Of a DNA stretch of 64,000 bases, positions 1 to 64,000 are shown piece after piece. Within the stretch, counting starts at the first letter, position 1; each line of letters begins with the position of its first letter. The notes under the pieces are model-generated. The model was not told the origin of the DNA, searched no databases, and saw only the letters and a list, made by a program, of their open reading frames with translations. The DNA is from Solanum dulcamara. Lineage: Eukaryota; Streptophyta; Magnoliopsida; Solanales; Solanaceae. Location of the stretch: contig NC_077240.1 in assembly GCF_947179165.1 (NCBI RefSeq), positions 4,223,501 through 4,287,500 of the forward strand, in the 5' to 3' direction. A program made the position numbers and the translations under genes.

Positions 1-780
1 AAAGATATCGATGAGATGTTCATCATTGTGCTAGACAAGGTATTTACCAAAAGCACCAGAAAAAATGACAAAGAAGAGGAAGAAGTTGAAAAGACAGCTT
101 TCAAGAGTCCCTCCAGTTAATCTTCCTCACCAGCTGTTGTGGGGAATGTTGCCATGTTTGAAGGTAAACAACAGGAGAAGCCCTTCTTCCTGTGTTAATA
201 CTTACATTTCTGGCAATAACAACAACATACTTCTTATTATTTATTTATTGAGGCAGAGTACCACAAAAGGTCGTTTGGTGGGTGAGGGAGAAGAAAGAAA
301 TTCATATTAAATATATCAATGTCAGAAAGGACATGTATGAAGGAGTCATCACTAACATGAGAATAATAGTAGGAGATACAAATACAAAGAGTTTCTCGTA
401 ACAGTGAGTTCACACTAGGGATCAACATTGAGCCCCGACTTGTTTATCCTAGTTATGGTTGAGCTAACCAACACAATATAAAATGAGGTCCCATGGTGGA
501 TGCTATTTGCTGATCATATTGTGTGAACCAACAAAACAAGTGTCAACCAAAAGCATGAACTATGGAGAAGCATTATAGAGAGTAAAGATCTTTAAAAAAA
601 ATAGAAGTAAAACTGAATATATGCACCAAGTTTAGTCAGAAGAGCGAAATTGAGGTGAGACTAGACGAAATCGTAGTGCAAAAATACAAACAATTTAGAC
701 ATAAAGGCTTGTTGTTTCAAGAGAATGGAATAATAAATGAAGATAATACTCATAAAAATAAAATTGGATGGTTGAAATGG

Positions 781-1425
781 AAATGTGTTACCGAGCGGCC
801 AAAGTGAATGGTAAGTTCTTCAGAAACTATAAGACCGACAATGCTATATGATAGTAAATGTTAGGTTGCTTAAGTCCGAGAGGCGGATTCTTAAGATGAA
901 TGTGCGTTCATACAAGATTTGTTAAAAATAAAAATGGTCACACTCGCCAAAATGTGCAAATAGCATGCAATGAAGATAAAATGAGAGAAGGTCACTCGAG
1001 ATGCTGTCATGTGTCGACCTATAGATGCACCAGTACGTAGGTGTGCAACTATGATGAGTGAGGATGTTAAAACGAGGGTAGACCTAAAATCACATGGAAG
1101 GAAGTCGTCGCGAAAGACCAACAATTTCTTGGAATCAATGGAGAATTAGCTAAAGATAGGGTATAATTGAAGAAAAAATTCCATATAGATAATATCTACT
1201 AGATGGGAATAGGTTTTAGACTTGTTAGAGAACTTCTAATAACATTGATTATTATTATTGCTATTATTATTATTATATATATTTAGTTTATCTTTTACTT
1301 ATATTTTTATTTGGTATGATGTCATTTGGTATGATGATGACATGAGTTGAGCTTAAATAGAAATGTGAGGATTCATATAGCCAACCCCAAGTTATTTGGG
1401 ATTGAGGTGTAGTCGTCGTTGTAGT
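781..1425 (+). mobile_element. RTE-type LINE 3' end relic
   Basis: Short stretches in shifting frames match the C-terminal end of plant RTE-type LINE reverse transcriptases: RPIDAPVRRC at about 1043-1072, then GRPKITWKEVVAKD followed by GINGELAKDRV at about 1076-1165, then a stop. The 3' part ends in CCAACCCCAAGTTATTTGGG and a TCGTCGTTGTAG tail typical of these elements. It is a decayed 5'-truncated copy in the 1.9-kb intron between REV1 exons 21 and 22. An (ATT)n run lies at 1246-1275. Confidence 0.7.
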
Positions 1426-4400
1426 ACAGAAAAGACCGCAAGTCTCTACCAGTCTGTGTCCTTCAAAATTTTACTTGAGAAGTCTTATCAAAATATTTAC
1501 TTGGAAAACTACACTTAGTGGCTGTCTAATTTCCTCATCACCCTGGGTTCTGCATGTATAAAACACACCACATTGAGTTTCTACTTCAAGATTCCAAAGA
1601 TGAAAGGAATACAATAGCATCAAAAAAGATTTAAGATCACACAGAGGAATGAAAATACAGAAGCACGTGCCAAGAAAATAGATGTGCTCAAGAAAATGAA
1701 CGCATACTGCAGGTAAGTTCAGTCTCTGGTACATACCTTCTTAAAAGGCAAGAACAAGTATAAACCTCTTCAATATCAGTTGAAATTTTTAATTTTAGAT
1801 ACTGCTTGATAAGCTCGCTTAAGAAACTAACAGCCTCGACCCATCCGTCAGTGCCGACATCAGGGAGAATATAAATCTGAGACATAGTCCTCTGCAATAT
1901 AGAGGATAACTGTTTCCTTGCCCCTGCGCTTTGATACATCTCTCCCAAAACGCACAAAATCTGACAATTGCTGGCTTTGAATATGTCAATCCATTCAGGT
2001 GGATTTCCAACCCACAAATCAATGCTTGAAATAGAAGGACTACAGTTCTGATTATTAGCACAGACCAAGGAAGCATCTAGTGAAGATTCATTGTTCCTGT
2101 GTGCAGGAAGGAGTTCAAGTATATCTGCCCTCAACTCCTCAGGTAATTCCTGAAAAACCGAGGTGTCTACTTGACTTAGAGAAGAGGGCATTAGACTGAT
2201 ACCTCCTGAGACAAGAGCATTAATAACCACATCCATATTTGGTACACTAGCATCAGACAGTGTCCCACTTTTCATATCAGCAAAAAGCTTATTAGGATAA
2301 GAGACCGCTTGGATTTCCTCTTCATTATGCTGATGCTCCAATTATAGTCACCAGAATCAACACCATGAAGTTGTAGAAACAAGATAAACCTCATCATCAA
2401 CATTAAACAAGGAGAAACAATAAGCCAGCCCAAGTAGAGGAGAAAAACTGAAGATACCTCATGAGCAGCAAAAACTTCATCCTGTGCAGCAGGGCAAACA
2501 GAAGATATGTTTTCTTTTTCTGATACACCTAATTTAAAAGATATGAGAATTGAGGCAAAAGCTTATAACAAAACGGTATATATGTATAAGCTAATTGGGT
2601 TAACCAACTGCCTTCTGTAATTTAAAGGAATGCATCCTTACCTTTGCTTCTCTTTTCAGTAATAAAATGAGCCAATTTTCCATCATACATGTCATTAATT
2701 TCTGAAAAGACCTCAGGAGGAAGAGACTCTATTACTCCTATATCAAGCTCGTTCATAGGAGGAAGAGTTCCTCTCTGTCCAAAACCAGCAGCACCGGAGG
2801 GCGACGTTGCAGTCATTTCAATGAAAGGTGTACTTGAATCACCCTGCAACTGAGCCTGGCGTTCATGAACACTGTTTTTACCGTTATCTGCCATATCAGA
2901 GAAGCAGATCGAACTCAGACTCATCCTGTCTTTAGTGGAAAATGAACTCAATAAAAGTTTAGGCGATACTTTTTAGTTAAGAACTTGTTGAAAACACAGA
3001 ATCGATGTTGGAATAAGTTGACATGAAGAAACAACATAAGACCATCATACTAACTTTTTAACAGAAGCATTAAAAAAGATATTCCATATCCATCAGTGCT
3101 GCTGAGATAAAAATCCCATTGAGTTGCTCATGTTGTAGACAGAGAAAGGAAACAATTATGATGTCCTCAAGTATTTCTTAGGACACGCAAATTAAAGAGA
3201 TTCCTATAAAAGGTATACCACCTTTCATGTGCTAGAACACGGCCAATGCAAGGAACCACAACAGAGTTTCAGTACCAGTTTAAGTGTGTTAGAAATACTT
3301 CTATCAAGTAATAGGCATGACTGGAGGCAATAAATATTTGGACAAGCCAATGAAAATAAGTGAAGAAGTCAAACCTGCATCAGCACCTTTCTCATGACTA
3401 CTGCTTCTGTTTTGGTAATTGGTCTTAGCAGAGGCAGCAGTGAGCCAAGATCTGATGGAGCATCTCTCTTTCCCTGGATTTATGTCAATGAAATTAGTAG
3501 AAAAACAGTTCATAAATGGCATACTGTCGTCATCATAACTGGCATAGAGAGAGATATAAAACGTGAAGAAAAGACCTTGCTTGGAACTATCCGCAGTTTC
3601 AAGCTTTGAGACCTGCAATCCCATGCCTCGTATGTCCTCCACATCTGCACAGCGATTGTCAAAACAGCATTTATATTAGAAGAAGAAACAGGGTAGACTA
3701 CAAGTCATACTGAGATCACACTGGGTATGTATTTGTTGTTGCTGAACAAAGATATGGTTGACGTGGAAGAAAAATCTAAGTTTGTTACTCTAAATTCATT
3801 TGGTCCAAAGGGAATTCTAACATCCTTAGAGAAAATTTTTGGTCTGCAATGTTCAAAATTCACCGTGAGTTGATTGATTCTGATACATCTAACAATTTAG
3901 AAAAAAGAAACGCCGCTAATGCAGAAACCAAAGAACATCAAAAATGCACTTAAAAGTTTCATCAGCATCAGAGCTGCACCAGTATATTTTTAGTTCCCCT
4001 TTAGGCTATACATAAGGTTTTTGAAGTTTCAGGCAATAGCATTCTCTGACAGGTCTCAAGCCCAACTCAAAAAAAAAACATACTGTAACATTCTTGGGTA
4101 ATAAAACAGAAACTCCCTATTGAAGGGAAAGAAAAAAAGGCTTTTCTGAGCTCTATTCACCATCCTAACACTTGGGACTCTAATATGAAATAGCTAAAAC
4201 ACGAATCTCAAGATTTTTTGGTTAACATGACTCTGAAAGACAAATCTTGTTTCTTGCAATAATTTGGCTAAAATCATGAAAAACAAGTGGTCGAGCTTCT
4301 GCATGTGAGGAAACGTGCATCTTTGCTCTTCACCATTTCTCCCTCTTTGTTAAGCTTATCAGCACAGAAATATCAGTAGAGAAAAGTTTGTCTGTGTCAA

Positions 4401-5039
4401 TACACAAAAACTATATCAAAGAGCGAAAATACAATGACATTACCTCAGCCCTAAAGAAGGTTGCGGACTTACGATTATTATTCTTACTCTTCCAAAAATC
4501 AAATGGGGGACAGAAGTGGAAGAAGCATAAGAAACAAGAAGCATAGGATGCTCAAAGGATTGGCTCAGTGTTTTCCTTAATAACATCATGTATCAAATGG
4601 ATTAGTTTACTGAAAGTTGCTCAGATATGGAATGTCACACACAAAAGCTGATACTCCGTCCCAAATTGATATGACCTATTTTGTTTATTTAAGTTTAATA
4701 TGACTTCATCTGCTGAGAATTAAATCAAGTACTAGAACTATATGAAAAACAATACAGTTCGATATTTTCCCATTTCATATGACAAAAAATATTTAAGAAT
4801 TACAGTCAAAAAATCTTTGTTCGACTTCCAAAGCAGATCAGATAATCATTTTGGCACAGATGTATCAAGATAAAAAACAAAACTAGGAAACAAGAAGGAT
4901 AATGCAGATTAAAATCACAACAAAAGCCCATAAGTGTGAATGTGAAGTGAATTGGTGGTCCCAAAGAACAAAGGTAAGCACACTATTCACATTGAAATGA
5001 CATTGAGATTAGCTAAAATTTCTTAAGATAATCCATTTC

Positions 5040-5175
5040 CATTTTGGAATTCACCCTAGAAATAAATCACCTAGTGTTTTTTTGTCTTTGCTGGAATTTG
5101 AACCTGATCTTCAAGGTTCACGCCCAGTTCATTGAACCACTAGGCCACACACTTGGGTGCGGTTTTAAACCCTTA
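5040..5175 (-). mobile_element. SolS-type tRNA-derived SINE in REV1 intron 16
   Basis: The minus strand shows a pol III promoter of tRNA type: A-box TGGCCTAGTGG at 5147-5137 and B-box GGTTCAAATTC at 5104-5094. It is followed by AAAAAACACTAGGTGATTT, which matches the body of Solanaceae SolS SINEs as I know them. The 3' end is degraded. The element starts within about 40 bases of the exon 16 splice donor at 5212-5211 and lies in the same orientation as the gene. Confidence 0.75.
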
Positions 5176-6162
5176 TTTTGAAGAGTAACATTCACATAGG
5201 GAAAGCAATTACCCACGTGTGAAGTCGTAAAAAGCTGTGAAACAATTCTCTCAAGCACATCAACACTATCTGTTGCCATTGGCACCTACAAGTGGCACAA
5301 TGCAATTAAAGGAAAATAGAAATTTCTTCAATTAAAAAACATAGAGAACAAGGTTATCACAGAAAATATTATACCGTGACAGAATGGCTCAAGTTATCAC
5401 ATACACCACAGCCCAAATACTTTACTGGCTCCCCTGCATCACCCTTTCTTTTCTTTATCTGTATTGATAAATATAGGTGCAAAAGCAGCATGAGAACCAA
5501 CTATACGACTACTTTATACTAAATGAACTATAATCTCAATATAAATAATGGTTTCATAAAGCAAAAAACAGAGAGAGACCTTTAAGGTAAACTTCCTCCC
5601 TATCACTCCACATCCCTGCAAACGTAATGAAACCTCCTTGCAAAGGTTTAACAGAAAATGTTGTACCTGAATTGAGGTGGTGTTTAGTGTCAATAAGCAT
5701 TAGTACAAATGGCCAAAACAACAACGATATTTAGTGGAGATCTAACGTCTTTCAGATCCTTGAACCTCACGCCCCAGTTAACATCTGCACCAATGGATTT
5801 GCTTTCCTGCAAACGTTATCGAGAGGTTTATATATTTGGCTTGAACACGCATGACTGATTATAAACAAAATGACAAACTTCATGATGCAGATTCGTGAAG
5901 CATGTAACTAGTATCTGCTTCCTTTTGACAGACACTAGAACAGCTTTTTAAGACCTCTACAGAAATACGATGCAAGTGTATATGTCCTACTTACTACATT
6001 CGAAACGGAACCAAAACTTGCTCTGAAAATACATAAATATATACGCGCGCGCACACAGTACCACTTGAGGGACTGCTTATATCAGCACCAGAATCAATGA
6101 CGCAAGTTAGAAGCAACAAGCAGCACAGGAGGCAAAATAATAACTCATCAATCATTAAGCAA

Positions 6163-6441
6163 GAGCCCGTTTGGATTGGCTTATAAGTTACTTATAAGCT
6201 GTTTTCAGCTTTTTTGAGTGTTTGGCTGTCCAACTTAAAGTCATTTTGTGCTTAAAATAAGTCACAATAAATAATTGGGTTTGTTTGGATGGACTTATTT
6301 GAAGCAACTTATAAGTTGAAAATAGCTTATAACTAAAAAAAAAATAAGTTGGGCTGCACCTACTTATTTTTTTAAAACTTATAAGCAGTTTTCAACTCAT
6401 AAGTTACTTAAAATAAGTCCATCCAAATTCCAAACAGGCTC
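6163..6441. mobile_element. Foldback MITE in REV1 intron 12
   Basis: The ends form terminal inverted repeats: GAGCCCGTTTGGA on the left, and GAGCCTGTTTGGA when the right end is read in reverse. The interior folds back around TTATAAGTTACTTATAAGC-like stretches. The family name and target-site duplication could not be settled. It is a non-autonomous DNA element of about 279 bp with no reading frame. Confidence 0.75.
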
Positions 6442-7462
6442 CAAGTCTCCAATATTCAAAAAAATAACAGTGAAATAAAGGAGTCAATGGGAGTTCGCGA
6501 GTCAGTTGTGTGAATGACAAAAATCCAAAAGAAAGCCTACAAATAAAAGCGATACAGTAAGATATTCTGTGTTGATCCTAACCTGTATCATGCCAACCAA
6601 CCGATCATCTATCCCTCTACTATAGTTCCATAGCATACTGCCAGTTTTAGAACCAAAGTCCCTCTGGAGAGTTTCCTGGAAACACGACAAATGAGTGGGA
6701 ATATATATAGTCCAATATTGAGTATAATGCATGTCAACCCAAAACATGGCAGGCCACATATATAAAATCATTCTTTGTGCCACCACGATTGGTGTATCGA
6801 TAAGTATCATATAAAGGAGAGAAGCATCCCACTCGTCCGGCTGAATAACAGCAAAAAAATTATGAAAGTATTCACAAATAAGAAATCGCTTCTTTAATCA
6901 GTAAGACAAGTCTTGAGCTATTCTAAGAAAAGATAACTAATCAACGAACAAACAAGTGTTGTAATGTGTTCGACATACTTCTCAAAAGAAACAACCCCCA
7001 TGCCAATAAGGGATTTCTTAAGCACTAATTAAGTAATAGTTTCCACAAGACGAGATATTCTCATTTCATCGAATGATCATACATTTGGAAACATTTTAAC
7101 CATGAGTTTAACAAAACATCATTAGCTGAAATAAACTCCAGGAGCTGAGTAAGCCAAATAGGTGTAAATGTTGTCTTAAATAAACAATATATCCGCTATT
7201 TCATCAGCTCTAGTTAATGAAGGTTCCAAGGATGCTTAACTTTACATGGGCAGGAATGTGCCCATGAAACTGGGGAACAAGTGACAAAGAGGACTCTGAC
7301 TCAAGCAGACAGCATGAATAACAAACCTCAATTTTCTTTGATAGCTATCCAGTTGAGATTACCTGTTAAATGTGAAACCCTTTTTCACAAGAAATGGAAA
7401 ATATAGTTTCATGGAGAGCTTTGGATGGAGAAGGCAAATAAACAAGAAGATTAATCCACCAA

Positions 7463-7640
7463 ATAACAACAACCCCCACTGGCCTAGGTATCAAACAACA
7501 CTACACCACCACAACTCCCTCCCTCCTTCCATAGCGTAGGAAGATCGGAATAATTCAACAAGTGTCGTCCATGCTAGACTGCAATCCTTGGTTTCCAAGG
7601 TTGTCACTCCAGCTCCTAAACGTTAGGCCACCCGGCTTGA
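7463..7640 (-). mobile_element. SINE-like element in REV1 intron 11
   Basis: On the minus strand it opens with GCCGGGTGGCCTAACGTTTA, which resembles a tRNA-derived head with an A-box. It ends with GGGGGTTGTTGTTATT, a TTG-type tail of Solanaceae SINEs. The B-box is not clear, so this is a decayed or unusual family member. Confidence 0.45.
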
Positions 7641-10545
7641 CAGAAATTCTTCTTAGGAACTCTTAAAAACACACACCTTAATACAATTTGCAGTACCTTC
7701 CTGGTACTAGCTTTGATAAAACACCATTATCTTATTATTTTTTAAAACAAATACTGTAGCAAGAGATTCAATGATTCATCATGAAGTATTCTTGTAGTGT
7801 TTTTTCAAGCGTGAAATGTATCTGAGAGAAACCAGATCAAAAGAGATGCAAAAGAGTGCTTGTTGTACACAAACTATAACGAGATAGAAAATCAAAACCG
7901 CAAGAGCAATCACCAATATATTGCAGAAGGAAACAAATACTAAACAATGAGAACCTTGGAAATCATACGCAGCTGCCCACAAGTTGTGATTTGTCTCCTG
8001 TTCAACTTCTCTTCCAACACATGACCGATTCCAGGAAGTGCTTTTACTGGAAGTTCACACAGGTGCTCCTCCACCTAATATAGCCAACAAGATAAATCAG
8101 GACAATAAAATCACAATAATTATTTTAATTCTCTAAAATGATCTTCAAGCCTTTGTTTTCCTCTGTTGCCACTACATGCAGTAGACACTAAAATATTAAG
8201 ATGATCAAAAAGGGAGTTAATCAGCGAAGATCTAAACAAGAGAAATGTCTTTGATATTGAATAGTATCTGTGATGGGATAAAACTAAGTGATCAAAATAG
8301 CCCTTTTCTGGGACTAATCCTTAATAAAATATCCGCAGATTGTTTTTCTTTTATAAAAGGTAATAAGAAAGTTGTAATTTATTAAAAAAACATTAGTAAA
8401 ATAATTCACGGATTCATGTTGATTTCCATCTAACACCAGATTCTTGCAGCGGAAAAGGTTATTATGCTTGACCAGGATCGACATAAACAAAGTGAAACAA
8501 AAAGAGCATCATGTGGCAATGGAGAAACATCTCACGTGGCAAGGGCATGGAGAAGCCCCGGCAGAAACTTCGCTTTATGAAAGTGGAGCCTATAAAATCT
8601 GATTTCACTTGCAGTCATGCCCTTTCTAGAAGTACATGCAAATTCACAATGCATGGTCATCAGGTAAGAAGAGATTTACTACAAATAGTTAAAGAGAAGG
8701 CAATGACATGTAACCAATAAAGATGTAGCTGCAAAATATAATTTGTGATACGGTAGAAGATGCACATATTTAGATGACAAAGATCAAGACATAAGTTTTC
8801 CCCCCTCTTCATACATCAAAAAGTCAGCTCGAAATAAGCTACCTTCTCGGCAGGGATGTAACACTGCCCGTCTGGTTTTGCAATCCTAGTAGCAAGCCGC
8901 GCCATAAGCATATTCTCAGCAATACCAGCACTAGCAGTACAGCCTGTCGCATCAAGAATCTCATCTCTGATCACTGAGACAAAAGCTTGAATTTCCTCTA
9001 CTCCAGAATCAGTGGCATCTAAAAATGCTTCGTCACAACTTACGGCCTGCATTCAGTAGCAATTATCAATCAAGAGATAAGAACATCGTGAAATTGTTCA
9101 ACAAGCAGTTTTGAGGCCATACCTGCACTTTGTTGCAGTACTTGTGCAATATGTTATAAAACCGATCAGCAACCTGAAAATGAAATCAGATTTTATAGGA
9201 CTCGATATCCAAATACAAAAGAATCCAATTAAAAGGGGAAAAAGAACAAGATGAAGAAACTGAAATATCATAACCACCTCCTCATAAGCCTCGAAGTCAT
9301 AAGAAAGAATGACTAGGTGAGGGCAACGTGACTTGGCATCTCTGACAAACATTCCAGCCTTAACTCCTATGAGAAAAAAACTTGAATGACAATCAAATTT
9401 CAAACACAGGATGATATTTAAGAAAAGGTTGGATTACTGACTGAAAGACTGACCATAACCCCTAGCAGGATAATTGGCTGAAGATATTTCTGCTGTTCCG
9501 CGTGGATTATCTGAATGGCAAATGGCAACAGGTTTATCCTTCAACTCGGGGCGATTTCTAATGACCACAGACACAAAAAAGCAATCCTGAACAAGTAAAG
9601 TTGAACTGATTGTTTTAGCACAGAGAATAATCAACAGAGACGGGTAGAATGTCATATATATGATCAAAGAGGGTGAGCCGGAAAAGGAGACAGAACATAG
9701 ACGCAGTCATAAAAACATAAAGAGGACAAGTCGAGTTTTCAGACCATCGAAGCAGAAATTACCATATCCACATGAATAATCATTGTCTTATTTGCTGTTG
9801 CTGAAGAACTAGGGCCTGAACTTATGCATCTAAACCCACCAGGGGAGCTAGGAAATCATTTACGATACCGGTTTCTCCAGGTGCCAATGAAATGCAACCT
9901 AGAATGCTGAAGACAAAAGCACCCGAGGAATATGTCAACCACTTTGTCACTAGGCGCTTTTAGTATTTAATATGCAATTACTTATCAATGTGCACATACA
10001 TTTATGAATATATTAGTTATACAATGCAATAGCTTCAAATAAACAAATTCAAAATAACAGATCCACAAGCAAAAGCAGGTAATTTCTTCACATCAGAAGG
10101 CCCCAGAAAATCTGATGCCAAGAATTTAGTAGAAGTAATATAAGCAACACAATATCTAGGTATGAGTTGGCTGTTGATTCTTGATATTCGGTTTCTCAAT
10201 TGAAAAAAAGAATTGAGATTAGATCTTCCACAATCTTGAAAGGTCCATCATTGTGTCATCCCAGATCCAGTAACAGCAGAAGCAAAAGCATAAAGTAAGT
10301 TGATAATGGTCAATCATTAAAGGAAATTATAACCCAAAAAAAGAAGGTTGCTATGAGCATGTGGATCTCCTTTTGGCAATTATTGAAAAAAAGAAAACCA
10401 ACGTCATATTCACCTTTAACATGTTTTTCTTTATGATCTCAGCCTTCTCTATCCTTTGAGCAAAAGCTTTTTGCACATGAAAAGCCCCTCTTTGGTGCCC
10501 TATTATGGTAAAAATAACATATCCTGGCATTTCACTTATCAAAGG

Positions 10546-10690
10546 TGTTGGAGATACATAACATCCCACAAGTTATCAGTGTGTGTATATACTATATCCC
10601 ACGTCGTTTGTATAAAGGGCATCCCGGGGAGTTCATCTTAAGTTACTCGACCCATTGCCTCAAAGTCCAGGTTGGATGTTTAGTCCAACA
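10546..10690. mobile_element. Possible solo LTR in REV1 intron 5
   Basis: A 145-bp segment begins TGTTGGAGATACATAACATC and ends GTTTAGTCCAACA, giving the TG...CA ends and the TGTTGGA/TCCAACA inverted termini usual for an LTR. ATCCCACA and ATCCCACGTCG stretches resemble short plant LTRs. No 5-bp target duplication directly at these ends was found, so the ends may be slightly different. Confidence 0.4.
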
Positions 10691-12494: not shown

Positions 12495-13228
12495 CACCAA
12501 GAACAAGTCATAAAGCATACACTATACGCATCAAATCAGAGAGGAGAGGTGCATTTATGAAGTAAATTGTGCAAGAAGTAAATTGACCATATAGAGGAGA
12601 CATATGAAGTGAAACTCTAAAAATAATCCATAAAAATCAATCAACAATACCCAAAACCAACTAGTTGGCCTCACCTATAAAAACACTCTATATTCGTGCC
12701 TTTCTATGTGGACTCGTTTCATTCCAAGAATTAACGTCTATAAAGTAGCAAGAACAATATTTCTTGATGATCAACAAATTCCACTGGTTAAACTTTCTTG
12801 AAGATCGTCTATTCGAAATTAACTCAAAGGAAAACCATTCAAATATTTAAGATGATGTACAGCACCAAGAACAAGTCAAATAGCATACACTATGCACATC
12901 AAAACAGACTATCAGAGAGGAGGGGTGCATTTATGAAGTAGATTGTGCAAGAAGTGAACTAGCCCATATAGAGGAAGACATATGAAGTGAAACTCTAAAA
13001 ACAGTCCATAAAAAATCAATCAACTATACCCAAAATCAAATAGTAAGCCTCACCGACAAAAATACTCTATATTAATTCCATTCTAAGCAGACTCGTTTCA
13101 TTCCAAGCATTGACGTCAATAAAGTAATAAGAATAATATTTCTTGATGATCAACACCAACTTTCTTGATGATCATCTATTCGAAATCAACTCAGGGGAGA
13201 ACTGTTCAAATATTCAAGATAGTGTACA
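12495..13228. repeat. Two-copy 366-bp direct repeat in REV1 intron 1
   Basis: The blocks 12495-12862 and 12863-13228 are tandem copies of each other. Both start CACCAAGAACAAGTCA and end near GTACA, with many scattered substitutions and small indels. They are far more diverged than the 22-kb units, so this duplication is much older. Confidence 0.85.
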
Positions 13229-13481
13229 CAACGTTCAAAAATTCCCAAAATCAATCCAAACTAAGTAAAGAAAGAAGAAGAATAAACCTTCCGAAATTGG
13301 AGAAAGGTGAACTATAGAAGGCAGGACGAGAAGCAGAACGAGAATTGGCACCCCAGGCCATGCCTAGGGTCTTTTGACTCGCCTTCTTCTTCTTGTTGCT
13401 TTGATTGCTGCTGTTACTGCGATTTGAATTTGAGGTTCGTTTAGAATTGGAACCGGAATTAGCAGAGCGTGAGGGTTCCAT

Positions 13482-50800: not shown

Positions 50801-53800
50801 TATCGATAAGTATCATATAAAGGAGAGAAGCATCCCACTCGTCCGGCTGAATAACAGCAAAAAAATTATGAAAGTATTCACAAATAAGAAATCGCTTCTT
50901 TAATCAGTAAGACAAGTCTTGAGCTATTCTAAGAAAAGATAACTAATCAACGAACAAACAAGTGTTGTAATGTGTTCGACATACTTCTCAAAAGAAACAA
51001 CCCCCATGCCAATAAGGGATTTCTTAAGCACTAATTAAGTAATAGTTTCCACAAGACGAGATATTCTCATTTCATCGAATGATCATACATTTGGAAACAT
51101 TTTAACCATGAGTTTAACAAAACATCATTAGCTGAAATAAACTCCAGGAGCTGAGTAAGCCAAATAGGTGTAAATGTTGTCTTAAATAAACAATATATCC
51201 GCTATTTCATCAGCTCTAGTTAATGAAGGTTCCAAGGATGCTTAACTTTACATGGGCAGGAATGTGCCCATGAAACTGGGGAACAAGTGACAAAGAGGAC
51301 TCTGACTCAAGCAGACAGCATGAATAACAAACCTCAATTTTCTTTGATAGCTATCCAGTTGAGATTACCTGTTAAATGTGAAACCCTTTTTCACAAGAAA
51401 TGGAAAATATAGTTTCATGGAGAGCTTTGGATGGAGAAGGCAAATAAACAAGAAGATTAATCCACCAAATAACAACAACCCCCACTGGCCTAGGTATCAA
51501 ACAACACTACACCACCACAACTCCCTCCCTCCTTCCATAGCGTAGGAAGATCGGAATAATTCAACAAGTGTCGTCCATGCTAGACTGCAATCCTTGGTTT
51601 CCAAGGTTGTCACTCCAGCTCCTAAACGTTAGGCCACCCGGCTTGACAGAAATTCTTCTTAGGAACTCTTAAAAACACACACCTTAATACAATTTGCAGT
51701 ACCTTCCTGGTACTAGCTTTGATAAAACACCATTATCTTATTATTTTTTAAAACAAATACTGTAGCAAGAGATTCAATGATTCATCATGAAGTATTCTTG
51801 TAGTGTTTTTTCAAGCGTGAAATGTATCTGAGAGAAACCAGATCAAAAGAGATGCAAAAGAGTGCTTGTTGTACACAAACTATAACGAGATAGAAAATCA
51901 AAACCGCAAGAGCAATCACCAATATATTGCAGAAGGAAACAAATACTAAACAATGAGAACCTTGGAAATCATACGCAGCTGCCCACAAGTTGTGATTTGT
52001 CTCCTGTTCAACTTCTCTTCCAACACATGACCGATTCCAGGAAGTGCTTTTACTGGAAGTTCACACAGGTGCTCCTCCACCTAATATAGCCAACAAGATA
52101 AATCAGGACAATAAAATCACAATAATTATTTTAATTCTCTAAAATGATCTTCAAGCCTTTGTTTTCCTCTGTTGCCACTACATGCAGTAGACACTAAAAT
52201 ATTAAGATGATCAAAAAGGGAGTTAATCAGCGAAGATCTAAACAAGAGAAATGTCTTTGATATTGAATAGTATCTGTGATGGGATAAAACTAAGTGATCA
52301 AAATAGCCCTTTTCTGGGACTAATCCTTAATAAAATATCCGCAGATTGTTTTTCTTTTATAAAAGGTAATAAGAAAGTTGTAATTTATTAAAAAAACATT
52401 AGTAAAATAATTCACGGATTCATGTTGATTTCCATCTAACACCAGATTCTTGCAGCGGAAAAGGTTATTATGCTTGACCAGGATCGACATAAACAAAGTG
52501 AAACAAAAAGAGCATCATGTGGCAATGGAGAAACATCTCACGTGGCAAGGGCATGGAGAAGCCCCGGCAGAAACTTCGCTTTATGAAAGTGGAGCCTATA
52601 AAATCTGATTTCACTTGCAGTCATGCCCTTTCTAGAAGTACATGCAAATTCACAATGCATGGTCATCAGGTAAGAAGAGATTTACTACAAATAGTTAAAG
52701 AGAAGGCAATGACATGTAACCAATAAAGATGTAGCTGCAAAATATAATTTGTGATACGGTAGAAGATGCACATATTTAGATGACAAAGATCAAGACATAA
52801 GTTTTCCCCCCTCTTCATACATCAAAAAGTCAGCTCGAAATAAGCTACCTTCTCGGCAGGGATGTAACACTGCCCGTCTGGTTTTGCAATCCTAGTAGCA
52901 AGCCGCGCCATAAGCATATTCTCAGCAATACCAGCACTAGCAGTACAGCCTGTCGCATCAAGAATCTCATCTCTGATCACTGAGACAAAAGCTTGAATTT
53001 CCTCTACTCCAGAATCAGTGGCATCTAAAAATGCTTCGTCACAACTTACGGCCTGCATTCAGTAGCAATTATCAATCAAGAGATAAGAACATCGTGAAAT
53101 TGTTCAACAAGCAGTTTTGAGGCCATACCTGCACTTTGTTGCAGTACTTGTGCAATATGTTATAAAACCGATCAGCAACCTGAAAATGAAATCAGATTTT
53201 ATAGGACTCGATATCCAAATACAAAAGAATCCAATTAAAAGGGGAAAAAGAACAAGATGAAGAAACTGAAATATCATAACCACCTCCTCATAAGCCTCGA
53301 AGTCATAAGAAAGAATGACTAGGTGAGGGCAACGTGACTTGGCATCTCTGACAAACATTCCAGCCTTAACTCCTATGAGAAAAAAACTTGAATGACAATC
53401 AAATTTCAAACACAGGATGATATTTAAGAAAAGGTTGGATTACTGACTGAAAGACTGACCATAACCCCTAGCAGGATAATTGGCTGAAGATATTTCTGCT
53501 GTTCCGCGTGGATTATCTGAATGGCAAATGGCAACAGGTTTATCCTTCAACTCGGGGCGATTTCTAATGACCACAGACACAAAAAAGCAATCCTGAACAA
53601 GTAAAGTTGAACTGATTGTTTTAGCACAGAGAATAATCAACAGAGACGGGTAGAATGTCATATATATGATCAAAGAGGGTGAGCCGGAAAAGGAGACAGA
53701 ACATAGACGCAGTCATAAAAACATAAAGAGGACAAGTCGAGTTTTCAGACCATCGAAGCAGAAATTACCATATCCACATGAATAATCATTGTCTTATTTG

Positions 53801-56800
53801 CTGTTGCTGAAGAACTAGGGCCTGAACTTATGCATCTAAACCCACCAGGGGAGCTAGGAAATCGTTTACGATACCGGTTTCTCCAGGTGCCAATGAAATG
53901 CAACCTAGAATGCTGAAGACAAAAGCACCCGAGGAATATGTCAACCACTTTGTCACTAGGCGCTTTTAGTATTTAATATGCAATTACTTATCAATGTGCA
54001 CATACATTTATGAATATATTAGTTATACAATGCAATAGCTTCAAATAAACAAATTCAAAATAACAGATCCACAAGCAAAAGCAGGTAATTTCTTCACATC
54101 AGAAGGCCCCAGAAAATCTGGATGCCAAGAATTTAGTAGAAGTAATATAAGCAACACAATATCTAGGTATGAGTTGGCTGTTGATTCTTGATATTCGGTT
54201 TCTCAATTGAAAAAAAGAATTGAGATTAGATCTTCCACAATCTTGAAAGGTCCATCATTGTGTCATCCCAGATCCAGTAACAGCAGAAGCAAAAGCATAA
54301 AGTAAGTTGATAATGGTCAATCATTAAAGGAAATTATAACCCAAAAAAAGAAGGTTGCTATGAGCATGTGGATCTCCTTTTGGCAATTATTGAAAAAAAG
54401 AAAACCAACGTCATATTCACCTTTAACATGTTTTTCTTTATGATCTCAGCCTTCTCTATCCTTTGAGCAAAAGCTTTTTGCACATGAAAAGCCCCTCTTT
54501 GGTGCCCTATTATGGTAAAAATAACATATCCTGGCATTTCACTTATCAAAGGTGTTGGAGATACATAACATCCCACAAGTTATCAGTGTGTGTATATACT
54601 ATATCCCACGTCGTTTGTATAAAGGGCATCCCGGGGAGTTCATCTTAAGTTACTCGACCCATTGCCTCAAAGTCCAGGTTGGATGTTTAGTCCAACACAT
54701 CTATCAAAATCGACTTCATAAGCCCATTTCCATACTTACAAGTCCGAATCGAAATTTACATGTGAACTCCAAAAAACAGGTTATATTTGCGGAGAGGTGT
54801 TGTAATATGTGACGATAATTAACTTAACAATAATAACAATATAAACTAACTTTCTAACGCCAACACTCAACACTTAAGCAAAAAGGAAAAAGAAAAATGA
54901 ACTTGAGAGTAGAGATTGTTCATTACAATCATTTTTTATTTTTTATTTTTTAATTTATTTATTTATTTATTTTTTGGGGGGGAGGGGGGCTGGAAGATAA
55001 ATACAAGATGTTCTAGCAAAGCCAATGTCAAGATAGCCACGTGTGTACCTTGAAGTAATTTTCCACAAAATTAGCATCAACTAGAGTTGAATGTCGCTGA
55101 TTAGGAGACCTAGGAATCTTTAAATTTGATGGGGCCGTGTTAACAGGATCACTCATCCAGTCGCTACAAACTGATGCATCGTTATGAGGACTGAAAGGTG
55201 CTGAAAATGGAGCTTGGCTTCCATCTCCACTTGCAGCATCACTCAGTTCTTGCATTGCCATGCTACAACTTGACTCTTCGATTCTATCTACATTGTAGTT
55301 TGCTTGCATTAGATCTTTAGATTCTAGAGCACGAGGCTCCAAATCTTCTGCAGATTGCGACTCTTCAAAGGATACAGGATCTTCAATTGGTCCAGAATAT
55401 GACAATGGGCTCTCAACTCTAGATGTGGCTTGGACAGTTGAACATGTTGTCATATCATCATAAATAGCAATGTTTTTTGTGAAGAAAGCAGATAGCTTAG
55501 GCTGGTTATTAACTTCACTTGCAAGCTGATCAAGCTGATAAGGAACCCCTGAAAACAACAAAACAATGATAGAAAAGCTAATAAGTAAACAAGCAGTCAA
55601 CTTGCTCGTTTGCATTAAAAATCAAGTCATAGAAATATAAACTTACAATTCAGAAGCTTCTTTGCAGAGACAGAATCCAACACCCATGTGGGTTTGACTA
55701 CTGGAAGTCCCCTGCTAAAGGACCTATATGAAATTCAGACAAAACTTAGACGAAAATACTTTTATTTTCAACAGAGATACAAAAAATAGGAAACTGATGA
55801 ACTTGGTTTTACAACTGACCTTAAATTCTGGACCTTACTGTCAGGAAGATTACTACAGATTATATGAGTAACACGACGCCTAGAAAAATAATTTTCAAAA
55901 CGGCCTCCATGCTTCAACATATATCCTCGAAGTTCCTGGATAGATATTGTTGAAATCAATAAACTACAAGAGAAGCAACCTAATCTTCCATATGAGAAAA
56001 TCCAGTGAGGTACGGAAAAGAATATGATAGCTATATAGTCAAGGTATTGATTACAATGATGATGGATGTTTGTACACGGGTTTACATGCAGATTGAATGA
56101 ACTCTTCTTACAAGTAAGAATACAAGTAATTGTTTGTTTCGCCAATTCAAAAGTTAGAGAAGTTTTTTATTGATGAAACAGTATTCGACATCATTCATTA
56201 TTCGATTCAGGATCTTTTAAGTTGTCAATCTTCAAGCAATCATATCAGATTAATCCCCGGCAAGAAAATCACATGAAATAGACCAGAAAGAAACCATAAT
56301 GTACTAAACCTGACTGGAAGGAACCGTGTATCCATCAACAAAAATGGATACGCCCTGAAATATAGGTTTTGAAGAACTTGGACCACTGAGAGAAGTGCTT
56401 GATGCCTCCACCTCAAACTGCTCGTGAAGCTTCTGATTCTTCACGGCCATGTAACTACAGCAAAGTTGTCAAAAGCCACAATAAGAATATCAGGAAGTCA
56501 TCACCAAGAACAAGTCATAAAGCATACACTATACGCATCAAATCAGAGAGGAGAGGTGCATTTATGAAGTAAATTGTGCAAGAAGTAAATTGACCATATA
56601 GAGGAGACATATGAAGTGAAACTCTAAAAACAATCCATAAAAATCAATCAACAATACCCAAAACCAACTAGTTGGCCTCACCTATAAAAACACTCTATAT
56701 TCGTGCCTTTCTATGTGGACTCGTTTCATTCCAAGAATTAACGTCTATAAAGTAGCAAGAACAATATTTCTTGATGATCAACAAATTCCACTGGTTAAAC

Positions 56801-57488
56801 TTTCTTGAAGATCGTCTATTCGAAATTAACTCAAAGGAAAACCATTCAAATATTTAAGATGATGTACAGCACCAAGAACAAGTCAAATAGCATACACTAT
56901 GCACATCAAAACAGACTATCAGAGAGGAGGGGTGCATTTATGAAGTAGATTGTGCAAGAAGTGAACTAGCCCATATAGAGGAAGACATATGAAGTGAAAC
57001 TCTAAAAACAGTCCATAAAAAATCAATCAACTATACCCAAAATCAAATAGTAAGCCTCACCGACAAAAATACTCTATATTAATTCCATTCTAAGCAGACT
57101 CGTTTCATTCCAAGCATTGACGTCAATAAAGTAATAAGAATAATATTTCTTGATGATCAACACCAACTTTCTTGATGATCATCTATTCGAAATCAACTCA
57201 GGGGAGAACTGTTCAAATATTCAAGATAGTGTACACAACGTTCAAAAATTCCCAAAATCAATCCAAACTAAGTAAAGAAAGAAGAAGAATAAACCTTCCG
57301 AAATTGGAGAAAGGTGAACTATAGAAGGCAGGACGAGAAGCAGAACGAGAATTGGCACCCCAGGCCATGCCTAGGGTCTTTTGACTCGCCTTCTTCTTCT
57401 TGTTGCTTTGATTGCTGCTGTTACTGCGATTTGAATTTGAGGTTCGTTTAGAATTGGAACCGGAATTAGCAGAGCGTGAGGGTTCCAT
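41887..57488 (-). CDS. REV1: REV1 gene C: intact DNA repair protein REV1 (deoxycytidyl transferase)
   Basis: Exons: 57488-57295, 56454-56310, 55935-55820, 55723-55647, 55548-55049, 53912-53769, 53592-53460, 53372-53284, 53179-53129, 53052-52849, 52080-51961, 50681-50589, 49812-49753, 49672-49586, 49464-49381, 49291-49219, 47650-47582, 47479-47381, 46893-46648, 46534-46464, 46341-45743, 43829-43769, 41943-41887. About 1,123 residues, close to known plant REV1. Seen in order: basic KKKK patch near residue 30; BRCT about 95-185 with the conserved Trp of PTW at 165; N-digit SRLH at 346-349, where Arg347 matches by position the Arg that pairs with incoming dCTP; HVDMD with catalytic Asp391; SCDEAF with Asp488 and Glu489; ALPGIG helix-hairpin-helix; ubiquitin-binding motifs around LPPEV (835) and LPEELR (949); C-terminal domain about 995-1115. 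The start is the first ATG of exon 1, with G at +4. Residue 702 is Leu here but Met in genes A and B. The open frame makes this the likely functional copy; expression is not shown. Confidence 0.97.
42419..42843 (-). mobile_element. TRIM retrotransposon (copy 2), REV1 gene C last intron
   Basis: Copy of the element at 20416-20840 with the same target-site duplications (42414-42418 and 42844-42848). A third copy would lie just beyond the right edge. Confidence 0.88.
44787..45431 (+). mobile_element. RTE-type LINE 3' end relic (copy 3)
   Basis: Third copy of the relic, inside the intron between exons 21 and 22 of REV1 gene C. It shares the copy 2 variants. Confidence 0.7.
49046..49181 (-). mobile_element. 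SolS-type SINE (copy 3)
   Basis: Copy of the SINE at 5040-5175, next to the exon 16 donor of REV1 gene C. A-box at 49153-49143 and B-box at 49110-49100. Confidence 0.75.
50169..50447. mobile_element. Foldback MITE (copy 3)
   Basis: Copy of the element at 6163-6441, in intron 12 of REV1 gene C. It has C at 50302 where copies 1 and 2 have T. Confidence 0.75.
51469..51646 (-). mobile_element. SINE-like element (copy 3)
   Basis: Copy of the element at 7463-7640, in intron 11 of REV1 gene C. Confidence 0.45.
54553..54697. mobile_element. Possible solo LTR (copy 3)
   Basis: Copy of the segment at 10546-10690, in intron 5 of REV1 gene C. Confidence 0.4.
56502..57235. repeat. Two-copy direct repeat in REV1 intron 1 (copy 3)
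   Basis: Copy of the block at 12495-13228, in intron 1 of REV1 gene C. Confidence 0.85.
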
Positions 57489-57607
57489 GCTCGTCTCCGA
57501 TTTCTGGGAGTTGAGACGCAGAAGAGTTGCGCAATTTCTAAAATGAAGCGGGAAATATATGCAAGCAAGGGATCATTTATAAACACACGGATCTTAAGGA
57601 GGAATCG
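57489..57607 (-). promoter_or_regulatory. REV1 gene C proximal promoter with E2F site
   Basis: TTTCCCGC is at 57555-57548 and TTTATAAA at 57583-57576, with the ATG at 57488. The segment looks identical to the promoters of genes A and B, so expression differences between copies would not be expected from this part. Confidence 0.6.
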
Positions 57608-57727
57608 GGTCGGTTAACCCAAAACATTTTTATTTTTTGATGGAGAGGGTGAATTTAAAACATTTTTTTGTTATTTGTTATATTTTTTTTATTGTTTTCT
57701 TCTTCTTTACCTGATGTGTTGCTTGCA

Positions 57728-57854
57728 CCTGAACCAAGGGTCTTTCGAAAATAGTTTTTTTACCTCCACGAAGTAGTGTTAAGGTCTATGTACATTCTAT
57801 CATCTCCATATCTCACTTGTGGAATTTCACTAGGTATATTTTTGTTGTTGTTGA
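57728..57854 (+). mobile_element. TS-family SINE (copy 3)
   Basis: Copy of the SINE at 13721-13847, upstream of REV1 gene C. Confidence 0.8.
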
Positions 57855-58308
57855 CTCTATCATTAGGGTTGCTTATCAAGCGTATAATTATGCTTGACGG
57901 GTTCGCTTATCGGGTATTAATTTTTAAATTATTAATATGCTAGCCAATAAATAAGATATCGATTGGTTCAGGATCGTGCTATAAATTATCAGTCGATGTA
58001 TTGGGTCAATCATTTCATGCTCATTTCTTTCCGTTTCACTCACAAATATACTGATCTTTCAGCAAACAAAACAATTTTCTAGCTTTATTTAAGTTAACAA
58101 ATATATAGTTATTACTCACAATGAGAAATACATGAAAAAGGCTAATTTTGAGAATGCATGAACATAAGCATTTATTTAACAAAGATTCACTTGTACAATA
58201 ACTTATTGCTTCAAAAATAAAATATACATTTTTATATGCTAGAAGTGAAGATCCGTCCATTATGAACCAAACTAACTAAGTACACCGGTGAGAAATCCAA
58301 CTCACAAA

Positions 58309-58433
58309 TACTATCTCCGTCTCATATTACATAAACACTACTAACTTTACACGATAATTAAGAAATCATTAATACATTGAAAAAAATTATTATTTTACCC
58401 TTTGTTTATATCAATACAATATACACGGAGTAT
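58309..58433. mobile_element. Stowaway-like MITE (copy 3)
   Basis: Copy of the element at 14302-14426, between REV1 gene C and its upstream MULE relic. Confidence 0.55.
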
Positions 58434-58539
58434 AGAAATAGCTAGTATTGAAAATTGTTTACATTCAAAAGATCATATTAATTGTAGGGGTAAAATTAAA
58501 AAAAAATTAATACAAATTAGAATTTCATTTATAGAAGCA

Positions 58540-59765
58540 CTAGTATTGTATTCGAAAAGTCTCATCTGCTGCATCTAAGATATTAGCTGTTAGCATTGTC
58601 CCTTTGTATGCTCCTTTTAGAAAAGTTCCATCAACAACTACAATTGATCTACAATACTCCCATCCTTTTATCGATGTAAACAGAGCTACAAATGGATATA
58701 GAAAATGGTCATCCTCTGATTTGTGCAATCTTATATAAGAACCAGGGTAAGTTGCCTCTAGTATGTGAAAGTAACTTGACAACTTTGTATATGATTGAGC
58801 TGGATCACCTCGGACTAATTCAAGAGCCGCACATCATATTCCTGTAACATATGAGCCGCACATCATATTCCTGTAACATGTCATTTTGTATATCTCTTGG
58901 TGTGTAGTTGGATCAATACATTTGGCAATAATAATACTCCCAACAACTGTCTTGCTTGATTGTATTTTTCGATAATGAATTATGTAGCAACAAACACGTG
59001 TGTTCCCTTTCAAAATCTCTAATAGCGAACATTTGAGATTTATTCACGCTTGAAGCGCCTAAATTTCAGCTACAGTTTTCTCCGAGGCATTGTATTGAAT
59101 AGCTGTTGATTTTTTTTATTAATATACAATCAATAATATAAACTAACTTGAATTTGAGTCTTACCATGTTGAGCTTGATCTCAATGTCTTGAATTTGAAG
59201 TGTTTAAGAATGGAATGTCTTTTTAGTGCACTAATAAGGACATATTTATTTTTGTAAACTTGATCTATCTCAAAAAAAGATTGATTAAGGTTTATAATGA
59301 TGCCTGGTTGTATTTCTTCTTGCTCATCAACTTCCTCATATGATCCAAAGCCAATTAACTCTAGTGCATCATCGATACCACTAAATGCATTAGAATAGTA
59401 TGAATTGTGTGTAATCCTCATATCTTCTGAAGTGTCTGAACATAATAGTGGAATTAGGGTGGAATCACTCTCCAAGTTGATCGATTCAGTTGTTGTGACA
59501 CATAAAAGGTATTTTGACATATCTCTATGTTCCTTTTTTGGTTTCAACATACACTTTTACCCCCATATCGTTATGAATTTGAATTGGAGGAGACCTTTCA
59601 TCAATCTTATAACTGATTTCAACTTTACTTGTTGATGTTTCTATTGGCAATTGAGTAGCAATCACAGAAAAAAGACTAGCAAATGTTATCTGCCAAGTAA
59701 TTAATATACTTGTTACTAGAATTTCATGGACCATTGAAGTAAAGAAGCACAGCTAGATTAGCCAT
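58540..59765 (-). pseudogene. MuDR/MULE transposase relic (copy 3)
   Basis: Copy of the relic at 14533-15758 with the same breaks, plus a private A at 58964 where copies 1 and 2 have C. Confidence 0.85.
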
Positions 59766-59791
59766 ATTTTTCTCCTGCATTTTTTTTTGTT

Positions 59792-60283
59792 GAATTAGAA
59801 GGGAATTAGAGAATTAGACACGAATGAAACATGTAGCTAATAAAATCAGCCTTCAGTGATCTGTAGGCTACAAAAATGAATTAAACTTGAACAACAAATG
59901 TATTACACACACATTAAATTTGAATTAGAATAGAATTAAAGATGAATGAAACATGTAGCTAACAAAATCAGCCTTCAGTGATCTGTAGGCCACAAAAATG
60001 AATTAAACTTGAACAACAAATGTATTACACACACATTAAATTTGAATTAGAATAGAATTAAAGATGAATGAAACATGTAGCTAACAAAATCAGCCTCCAG
60101 TGATCTGTAGGCCACAAAAATGGATTAAACTTGAACAACAAATGTATTACACACACATTAAACTTGAATTAGAAGAGAATTAGACACAAATGAAACATGT
60201 AGCTAACAAAACCAGCCTTCAGTAATCTGTAGGCCACAAAAATGAATTAAACTTGAACAACAAATGTATTACACACACATTAA
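59792..60283. repeat. 122-bp minisatellite, four copies (copy 3)
   Basis: Same four-unit array as 15785-16276. The unit number is unchanged in the third 22-kb copy. Confidence 0.93.
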
Positions 60284-62274
60284 ATAAGTAATCGTGATAA
60301 ACATAGAAACGTAAATAAACTTTCATGTTGAATCACAACTGAATACAAATCTTGTATTGCTAATGAATTAGGCATGCAATCTAATTCAAATCTTCAAACA
60401 ATTAAACATTAAACCATTCAAATCTTTAAGTAATCACATATCTCTACTCAGAAATCACAATTCTTCAACTGATTCAAATCTGCATTCACCTAAATTTCGC
60501 AATTCTTCTGCAATAACCATCAAATACACATCACTGAATTCCAAAATTGGAGTATTAATGTTGTAGAAAGTCTTGGTTGAGAAGCTGGGAAGGTAAGTAT
60601 TGCCCTAATTTTTCAGAAAATCGTGGGTGTGAAGATTGGAGAGAATATTGGTGTAGCAAATTTGGAGAGAAACAGAGGAAGAGAAAATCGCGGGTGAGAG
60701 TTTTATAAGAGTAAGGACTGTACTTAATTTAATTCAAACAATATGCTATATATGGTTAAAATAATTATGTTGTTGTATGTGGTAAATATTTCTTGATTAT
60801 CGTACATTTAGATAATTTACCCTTAAATTTAGAGAAAATTATATCTTGATACATAAGTGAAATTATTTATCCAAATTGGATCAAATTCAAACTATTTACC
60901 CTTAATGGATCTATGGCCAAACTATTTACGCGCTACCCCACTTTTTTTTCTTATTTCGCGCATGACGTCAATATAACATCAGCATCACAATTACGAATTA
61001 ATCCTTTGTGATACTCCATCAATATATTGATACCATATCGATATCATATAAGGCTAAACTTATTCCTCTTTGATATTCCGTCGATATATCTATACCCTAT
61101 CAGTATCATATACAATTTGGCTCTTTTTTAAGAAATAAATAAAAAACAATTAAGAAAAAACTTATTTATTAAACTCTAAATTAATAGAAAAAATATATTT
61201 TTTCATAATTTTGTTCTCTTTTTTCAATTTTTTTAGAAAATTGTATCTAAATTATGAACTTTTTAATTGTTTTTAAATTAAAATTTTGAAGAATTGAAGC
61301 ATATATCAATGCCATTACAATATGTAGATATATCATAGTGGTATCATGGATGATTGAATAATCTCATTGAAGGACTAAGACAAATCTCAATAAAAATACT
61401 GTCCAGTTATTCTTTGATACCACCAGAATATATTATATTTTGATGGTATCAAGGAGGAAGAAGCAGTCCTTCAATGAAGACACTGCTCAATTACTCTTTG
61501 ATACACAAATTTAAAATTAAAAAAAAGATATGAAAATAATTGAACATTTAAGGATAAATATTTTTTGGGGGGCATAGTGTTCTTTTCCCTTAAATTTAAC
61601 TCATATATTAGCACTTGAAGTCGTGCTTTAACCTAACATTCAAAATTCATAAAGTTGGAATCCTATCTCCACCCTTCCCGACATATGTAATTATAAATCA
61701 AAAAATTTGTAAACCAACAGTACGGTTTCAACTGTTTAACATATACAGCACGCTGAAAAATGCATTGGCAAAGTAGATTTGAGCACGAGTGTATTCTTTC
61801 ATTTTCATGGTCAGACCAGGTGATGGCTGACCCTTGCATATATGCTTCAATTACGAGTTGCGACCATGACAGGCCACCGTTTTTCATGTAAACAAAGTTT
61901 CACCTGAGTCAACACATAATATCTACCTGAAATTCAGAAAATTATGTACTTGACTCAGCATAAAATATTCTATTTTCACTAACAAGAAAAATCAACAAAC
62001 ACTCTGTTCGGTATGAGAAAAGATAAATACTCAGAAAAACGACCTACCTTCGGTATGGATAATAATGTTTACGTGTAGCAGTGATATGAGGTCAATAAGT
62101 TACGTAACTGCAAAGAAGAATAACTTTAGTCGTAAAGTGAGAAAAGTCATTTTCCAATATCTTATGACATGCAAACACAATAAAAATGACTTTATCAAAC
62201 CAAAGTTTGGTATAGTCATATCAGATCATAAGATAATTACCATCCAATGAACTCTAGAGCAATCCTTCTAGCAC

Positions 62275-62395
62275 TTAATTTAGGTCACCCATGAGCTTTG
62301 CAACAAGCATTTGTCTGCCCCAACACTGCTTCTGAGCAATCCACAACCATGGAAACTGCTCCTCACTCCAACCAGTATTTACAGTGTAGTTAGGC
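62275..62395 (-). other. Possible terminal exon (copy 3)
   Basis: Copy of the 39-codon frame at 18268-18388, unchanged. Confidence 0.25.
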
Positions 62396-63890
62396 CTGAT
62401 CAATAATGCCAAAGTACAGAGAAATGCAGACTCCTAGGACTCCTTTCTGCAATATTAATAAAATAAAAGATAAGCACTATCATCACTGGCACAATAAAAC
62501 TAGAAAAGAAGAGAGAGAAAAGTGGGAAGAGAATAGAGCATACTTAAAGGCAGATAAAAATATCCTTAAACAGAAGAATCGAGCAAGTCAAGGACATACA
62601 GGCACTGTTTTCCATCAACCAGTTTTCTTGACAGCACACACCTAAATAGAAGTTGTAACAACCAAACTTCTTAGAATTTTTCCAAGCAAGACGAATAGAC
62701 TGAGATGGTTGAAATTGAAAAAAGAAAACAACAATAGACTACATATGCATTTATTTAATCAGGACACTCCTTTCTTCTTTTGGCTAACACAGGTGAATCA
62801 AGAAATTGTTTTTGTGTGCAACTTTACTTGGACCTGACTAGTGCTGCAGTTTACCACTGAACTCTTAAATAATGTCAACAGCACTACTTCCTTAAGTTTA
62901 ATCATTGACAAATACAGAATGCAATGTTATCAGGTCTAAGTAATGATGACACAGAAGGGGAAAAGTTATCCTCACACAGGGCAAAGGAAGCAACACATGC
63001 CACTTCATACTTTTGTTGTCTAATACCTCTCCAAATATTAATTTTGATGCCTTGTAAGCCACAAACTCCTTTCTCTTTTCTGTCTAATTGTGTCTCTACT
63101 ACCTCATCTAAAAGTTTAAATTATTAGAGAGAGAATATTTGTACTTATCCAATTAATTCTGTATGGACTCCTTCATTCCTTTTTCATGGGTAAGCACATT
63201 AAATACTAATCTGTTAACAGATGAATACCTACTTGGATAACCATGTTGAATTGTGTGAGCATGGCATAGAAAAGCTCCCAACTGCTAGAGAAGAGAGACT
63301 TTATTTATTTGATTGTTTTAAACACTTCTCATTAACTAGATTCCCTCTAGGAAGAGACAACATTCAAACAAAGGTTTGCATCAACAATGGGAAGTTAAAA
63401 ATAGCATTCTTGTTTCACTATTCAGTTGGATTAATATCAAGGATGTTCTTGAACATCATCCATACAGGACCTTCAGAAAGTAAGCCTACGACAAAAATGA
63501 ATACATTGTTCAACTGAATCAAGCAGTTCATATCACCTAACGTTATTCATCCAAAGAATGAAGCCCCACTTGACTTCAAGCAAGAGGGAAGACAAATGTA
63601 TACCTACACAAATTGGAAATAACACTTCCAGAACAGACAGGTACCTACCATGATCTCCAGCACTATCAGTTTAACCTGGGAAGACATCTTATCAGACCCA
63701 ATGCATCCCATGGGGTCCCCCACTCTATATGATTATGATTTCAACTTAGAGAGGATATCAGTGAAAGATGCGAGAACTTCAAGTAACATATGAAAATGAA
63801 AAGAAGATACAAAAAATCACAAATGGAATGCGGACTTGTAGACATAGAGCACCTGACACTTTTTTCTTGGCAAAGAAGGCATGCCACACA

Positions 63891-63947
63891 TCACTCTGTC
63901 ACAGAAGCCATGTAAAAGCTGCCACCATAGTTCTCACTAACCAATGC
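63891..63947 (-). CDS. REV1: REV1 gene D: last exon (exon 23) of a fourth REV1, rest beyond right edge
   Basis: This matches exon 23 of genes B (19940-19884) and C (41943-41887). After the acceptor AG it reads ALVSENYGG followed by nine more codons and TGA. It is the end of the Rev1 C-terminal domain. The other exons would lie to the right, so at least one more REV1 body, or a remnant of one, probably follows. Confidence 0.85.
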   Translation of the reverse strand, partial: ALVSENYGGSFYMASVTE

Positions 63948-64000
63948 CTACAAATTGAGATAAAAAGTTGATCAGGCTAGGTCACAAATTCACTGTTAAA

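Follow-up and report, generated by a model that had tools for sequence, protein, structure and literature searches.

A 64-kb stretch of Solanum dulcamara DNA (assembly GCF_947179165.1, contig NC_077240.1, positions 4,223,501 to 4,287,500)—which we call the window throughout—is made up of a head-to-tail array of a 22,003/22,004-bp unit, present in 2.91 copies, and one recognized gene, the translesion polymerase gene REV1, is found per unit. We put the probability that a 22-kb REV1 segment has recently been amplified into a genuine tandem array on a chromosome of S. dulcamara, probably chromosome 4, at roughly 0.8. Its copies are mixed, and drift or hitch-hiking rather than selection for REV1 would account for this. 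The main evidence is the presence of three distinct haplotypes in line within the window and a further variant among the annotated proteins of the species, together with a nonsense codon in two of the three readable REV1 copies.

The repeat unit and its variable sites

Offsets between identical 31-mers were counted across the whole window and peaked at 22,003, 22,004, 44,006 and 44,007; 19,280 of the 22,402 distinct 31-mers were seen exactly three times. This count and an alignment of the units divide the window into unit 1 (1..22003), unit 2 (22004..44006) and unit 3 (44007..64000), the last being clipped by the window end to 19,994 bp. The phase of this division is arbitrary as the window opens within the array, and because both window ends fall within it, the array must exceed 64 kb in this assembly. 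A first, sequence-only reading of the window had proposed a head-to-tail 22,003-bp unit in at least 2.9 copies, and both the 31-mer offsets and the unit alignment bear this out.

The units are 99.9% alike. Excluding the first listed row of the alignment, which is a window-edge effect, units 1 and 2 show 12 differences over 22,003 bp (11 substitutions and one indel), units 2 and 3 show five over 19,994 bp (four substitutions and one indel), and units 1 and 3 show 16 (14 substitutions and two indels). The spacing of one difference per 1–2 kb that had been estimated by eye therefore stands for units 1/2 and 1/3 but not for units 2/3, where it is about one per 4 kb. There are 17 variable sites among the three units: 11 are private to unit 1, five to unit 3 and none to unit 2, and at site 21361 units 1 and 2 differ where unit 3 has no coverage. 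The private sites of units 1 and 3 are interleaved along the unit, which gives three distinct 22-kb haplotypes. An extra G in unit 3 (54120), located in intron 5 of the REV1 copy c described below, sets the period to 22,004, so that the one-base, period-shifting indel reported from the letters alone is real in the alignment, and unit 1 has an additional T near position 19.

Seven private substitutions of unit 1 (982, 1306, 12624, 17227, 17560, 17699 and 17991) copy the neighboring base of a homopolymer or short repeat, which may be due either to mutational habit or to an effect of polishing.

REV1 copies, a nonsense codon and a further variant

The REV1 model comprises 23 exons on the minus strand, in agreement with the initial exon count, and all 22 introns have GT-AG borders in copies b and c. 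As the gene crosses the arbitrary unit edge, four copies are represented in the window, two of them in full. Copy a (1737..13481) retains exons 1–21, with exons 22–23 to the left of the window; copies b (19884..35484) and c (41887..57488) have all 23 exons; and copy d is represented by its last exon (63891..63947), the remainder being to the right of the window. Copy c has an open frame of 1,121 residues with a single terminal stop, and copies a and b both carry a TGA at codon 361. The acceptors of exons 19 and 21 were fixed by comparison with the S. dulcamara protein P0001 (see below) and relatives, which ruled out earlier acceptors that add 14 and 2 surplus residues, respectively. A model in which the unit lacks the REV1 C terminus was also rejected, since exons 22–23 sit across the arbitrary unit edge.

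The predicted product identifies the gene as REV1, with a BRCT domain followed by Y-family polymerase domains. In Pfam the order is BRCT (residues 94–170), IMS (390–537), IMS_HHH_1 (562–614) and IMS_C (624–746), all above cut-off. The closest solved chains by sequence carry the name “DNA repair protein REV1”, and we take these to be the human and yeast proteins. The HSRLH segment ahead of the palm, which has a role in pairing with incoming dCTP, is present and aligns with the REV1 chains. A ubiquitin-binding motif (UBM) was found at E 0.016, below its own cut-off, and Pfam listed no REV1 C-terminal family at E up to 1; the C-terminal end of the model aligns with REV1 from Solanum verrucosum and Capsicum.

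Two coding bases, in codons 361 and 702, distinguish copy b from copy c, and both differences alter the protein; copy a is identical to copy b across the 21 shared exons. Codon 702 (49285, minus strand) encodes Leu (TTG) in copy c and Met (ATG) in copies a and b. Codon 361 is a premature TGA in copies a (9856..9858) and b (31859..31861) and CGA (Arg) in copy c (53862..53864), all on the minus strand. We aligned the best 120 of 1,091 protein matches, and position 361 was Arg in 113, Lys in three, and Gln, Cys, His and a gap in one each; because Arg prevails among these homologues, TGA is the derived state. The affected C precedes a G in copy c and is thus part of a CpG on the coding strand.

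The stop at 361 lies ahead of the IMS domain, which starts at 390, so the frame is open through the polymerase domain in copy c and interrupted in copies a and b. With exon 6 retained, copies a and b would encode a BRCT-side fragment of at most 360 residues, and mRNA decay would be expected to follow from a stop as early as exon 6 of 23. Exon 6, which contains the stop, is 144 nt long and in phase at both ends (9763–9906 in copy a and 31766–31909 in copy b, minus strand; the equivalent 53769–53912 in copy c has CGA instead). Removing it from copy b leaves a computed open frame of 1,073 residues. Skipping would, however, remove a segment with HVDM at its end. Aligned to the best solved chain, this segment falls where the palm begins, and it presumably holds a catalytic aspartate. 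The statement that every unit has a complete REV1 gene is consequently incorrect: copies a and b carry the TGA, and only exons 1–21 of copy a are in the window. Since only one of the three readable copies is free of the nonsense codon, copy number does not equal functional dosage.

The best of the 1,091 matches is P0001, “DNA repair protein REV1-like isoform X3 [Solanum dulcamara]”, the representative of a cluster of nine member sequences. Its residues 723–813 are continuous at 3648–3376, i.e. an intron of our model is retained, and its residues 1114–1152 match 220–104, an alternative last exon within intron 21 of the model (104–220, 22107–22226 and 44110–44229, minus strand). Both are features that one would hardly expect a more distant species to have in common with the window. 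P0001 carries Arg361 and Met702, and has Pro17, Ile84 and Lys1095 where all three window copies have Ser, Ser and Gln. As these last three residues are absent from every copy in the window, P0001 is a further variant, and it is probably another copy of the array, provided that the window and P0001 share one primary assembly. The “-like” in its name and the nine cluster members are consistent with several annotated copies, without being proof of them. A query with the 360-residue BRCT side gave 62 matches, many of them nameless and none named S. dulcamara; a query with the part after the stop gave 1,028, and among the best 120 of these S. dulcamara was named only for P0001. Both results are weak evidence, because the protein database is clustered at 90% identity and cluster members are unlisted.

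Real array, artefact or selection

An assembly artefact is unlikely. It would mean that one locus, or two allelic copies, was stuttered or mis-joined head to tail and that the differences between units stem from allelic mixing or polishing, a scenario that is helped by the near-identity of the units (99.9%) and by a unit length above that of the average HiFi fragment. According to the available part of the S. dulcamara genome note, the assembly was built from 27-fold HiFi data with shearing averaging 12–20 kb, using hifiasm 0.15.3 and purge_dups, and received a single round of 10X polishing, reaching a quality value (QV) of 57.2. This QV translates into about 0.1 expected base errors per 64 kb, a rate low enough to speak against errors as the source of the differences. 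The largest gap between markers that separate units 1 and 2 is 7.1 kb, and from the last unit-2/3 marker of one unit to the first of the next it is 12.3 kb, so that reads of 12–20 kb could just order the units. Three interleaved haplotypes stand in line, with a fourth in P0001, when one diploid locus supplies two; this argues against simple contig stutter, which would need repeated phase switches plus a head-to-tail join that is absent from a single-copy locus.

Several points nevertheless weigh against a real array. The array is seen here in assembled sequence, and HiFi fragments with a mean of 12–20 kb are shorter than the unit, so that the link between units 2 and 3 needs reads longer than 12.3 kb. 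The common assembly of the window and P0001 is something that we infer only, no clear direct repeats mark the duplication junction, and the array ends lie beyond the window. Furthermore, the differences of unit 1 are clustered, with two groups of four within 770 bp; two such groups occurred in 0.83% of 100,000 random placements and one in 5.8%, figures for a distance that was picked after the data had been seen. Several differences sit at homopolymer edges and are possibly local polishing errors. Both the clustering and the homopolymer edges would suit an artefact, and the clustering could also reflect conversion of a tract or descent from a more distant copy lineage. We conclude that the existence of the array is likely and treat its order and exact length as provisional. 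The preference of the sequence-only reading for recent tandem amplification over an artefact is thus supported by the three haplotypes and the P0001 variant, and its picture of complete copies is not, since copy c alone among the readable ones lacks the nonsense codon.

If the array is real, its copies are mixed: one is open in the window, two have the nonsense codon, and one further open variant (P0001) would probably have its place elsewhere in the array. Amplification or conversion would then have propagated the defective type as well, an outcome more in keeping with drift or hitch-hiking than with selection for more REV1, and the increase in nonsense copies speaks against the simple form of such selection. 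We consider it quite improbable that the array has been kept by selection, be it for more REV1 or for truncated or catalytically dead forms that are useful, for example, under UV. Of the three readable copies, two end before the polymerase domain is reached, neither of the two coding differences found among the window copies is silent, and the stop in exon 6 of 23 should expose the transcript to the mRNA decay mentioned above. On the other side, the frame is open in P0001 and in at least one window copy, and the stop-bearing exon 6 can be removed in frame to give the computed 1,073-residue product. In addition, under chronic UVB Arabidopsis rev1 plants grow less, and somatic mutation falls when AtRev1 is disrupted, as stated in the accessible part of a review (PMC6794406).

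A more elaborate reading, to which we give very little credence, is a standing REV1 array that varies in copy number: translesion dosage would depend on how many copies are open, and changes in that number would feed back on expansion, contraction and conversion of the array, with truncated or exon-6-skipped copies acting as decoys or catalytically dead scaffolds. The basis for proposing a feedback on array recombination is that Arabidopsis plants lacking AtRev1 show less somatic mutation and more homologous recombination (same part of PMC6794406). Least credible of all is a 22-kb extrachromosomal circular DNA assembled as a linear head-to-tail repeat: it would yield identical head-to-tail sequence, and extrachromosomal circular EPSPS in Amaranthus palmeri, mentioned in the available text of PMC6808082, demonstrates that such elements exist in plants, but a single circle would not supply three distinct haplotypes in line, and P0001 sits on a chromosome-sized contig.

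Probable history of the array and its meaning

For a real tandem array, the first duplication would have brought the 5′ and 3′ flanks of REV1 together within the 6.4-kb intergenic segment that separates the start of copy a from the stop codon of copy b (13482..19883), and the array may later have grown through unequal crossing over between copies. The duplication junction must then be placed within this segment or its equivalents; a search for repeats in 13400–22003 found no clear flanking pair of direct repeats marking it. By total distance, units 2 and 3 are the closest pair (five differences), and the stop is nevertheless common to units 1 and 2. This requires either strongly differing branch lengths (unit 1 has 11 private sites, unit 2 has none) or a transfer of the stop from one copy to another via conversion or unequal exchange. 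At a plant mutation rate of about 7e-9 per site per generation, the divergence of 0.05% between units 1 and 2 would correspond to about 36,000 generations and the 0.02% between units 2 and 3 to about 14,000, both values being underestimates if the copies have undergone conversion.

The intergenic segment contains a weak MULE-transposase-like open reading frame (ORF; 14533..14826, minus strand; PF10551, E 0.0082, 17.0 bits against a cut-off of 27.6) and a 122-bp tandem repeat in 3.9 copies (15803..16278). An inverted pair of 50 nt, 78% complementary (14344–14393 and 16747–16796), brackets the ORF, and the region 14344–16796 resembles a weak MULE-like element whose 50-nt inverted arms also enclose the 122-bp repeat (15803–16278). 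No Pfam family was found for the ORFs at 15154–15549 and 15518–15745, and Rfam at gathering thresholds gave no match in 1–22100. Within the introns, about 300–1200 (intron 21) resembles by eye an old remnant of a long interspersed nuclear element (LINE); the LINE-like ORFs at 586–807 and 985–1149 matched no reverse-transcriptase family in Pfam, and a match to TssR_M (E 0.0013, below cut-off) was judged to be chance. Intron 22 has two direct 89-nt copies, 80% alike, at 20433–20831 (also in units 2 and 3), and 20623–20634 looks by eye like the primer-binding site of a long terminal repeat element on the minus strand.

Recent tandem amplification is a known kind of event, exemplified by Rhg1 in soybean and EPSPS in kochia, and what defines amplification of this type, near-identical direct segments arranged head to tail that each contain the gene, here REV1, is found in the window. 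The parts of the literature available to us describe Rhg1 as a 31-kb direct tandem repeat with up to 10 copies (PMC4455779). It is like the REV1 array in being a gene-bearing segment of comparable size in direct tandem repeat, and unlike it in containing several genes, varying between lines and conferring nematode resistance, whereas the REV1 unit has one recognized gene that is broken in two of the three readable copies. For EPSPS in Kochia scoparia, the corresponding account gives repeat types of 56.1 and 32.7 kb and proposes unequal crossing over together with a mobile element that carries an FHY3/FAR1-like, MULE-derived gene (PMC6808082). In both cases a wild plant has a housekeeping gene in tandem copies, and a weak MULE-like ORF is present in each intergenic segment here; however, the kochia units are larger and herbicide-selected, and in the REV1 array no element has been placed at the junction. 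No report of REV1 as the cargo of a tandem amplification was found in the open-licence literature searched.

Arabidopsis has one REV1 gene, At5g44750, according to the table of the review, the accessible part of which also links AtRev1 loss to decreased somatic mutation and increased homologous recombination (PMC6794406). The gene name and the order of domains (BRCT, then Y-family polymerase domains) match those found here, but in place of a single gene the window has at least three copies and part of a fourth in tandem, two of them with a nonsense codon. Because loss of AtRev1 alters both somatic mutation and recombination, the REV1 array is worth testing even if it was born by drift.

The window also illustrates that copies called “complete” by eye in near-identical repeats may conceal a loss-of-function change. 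REV1 helps to set the mutagenicity of DNA-damage tolerance, and should the array prove real, its natural variants that have or lack the nonsense codon would allow REV1 dosage to be tested against mutation and recombination rates in a wild plant. It would equally offer a well-marked case in which defective copies spread through a tandem array of recent origin.

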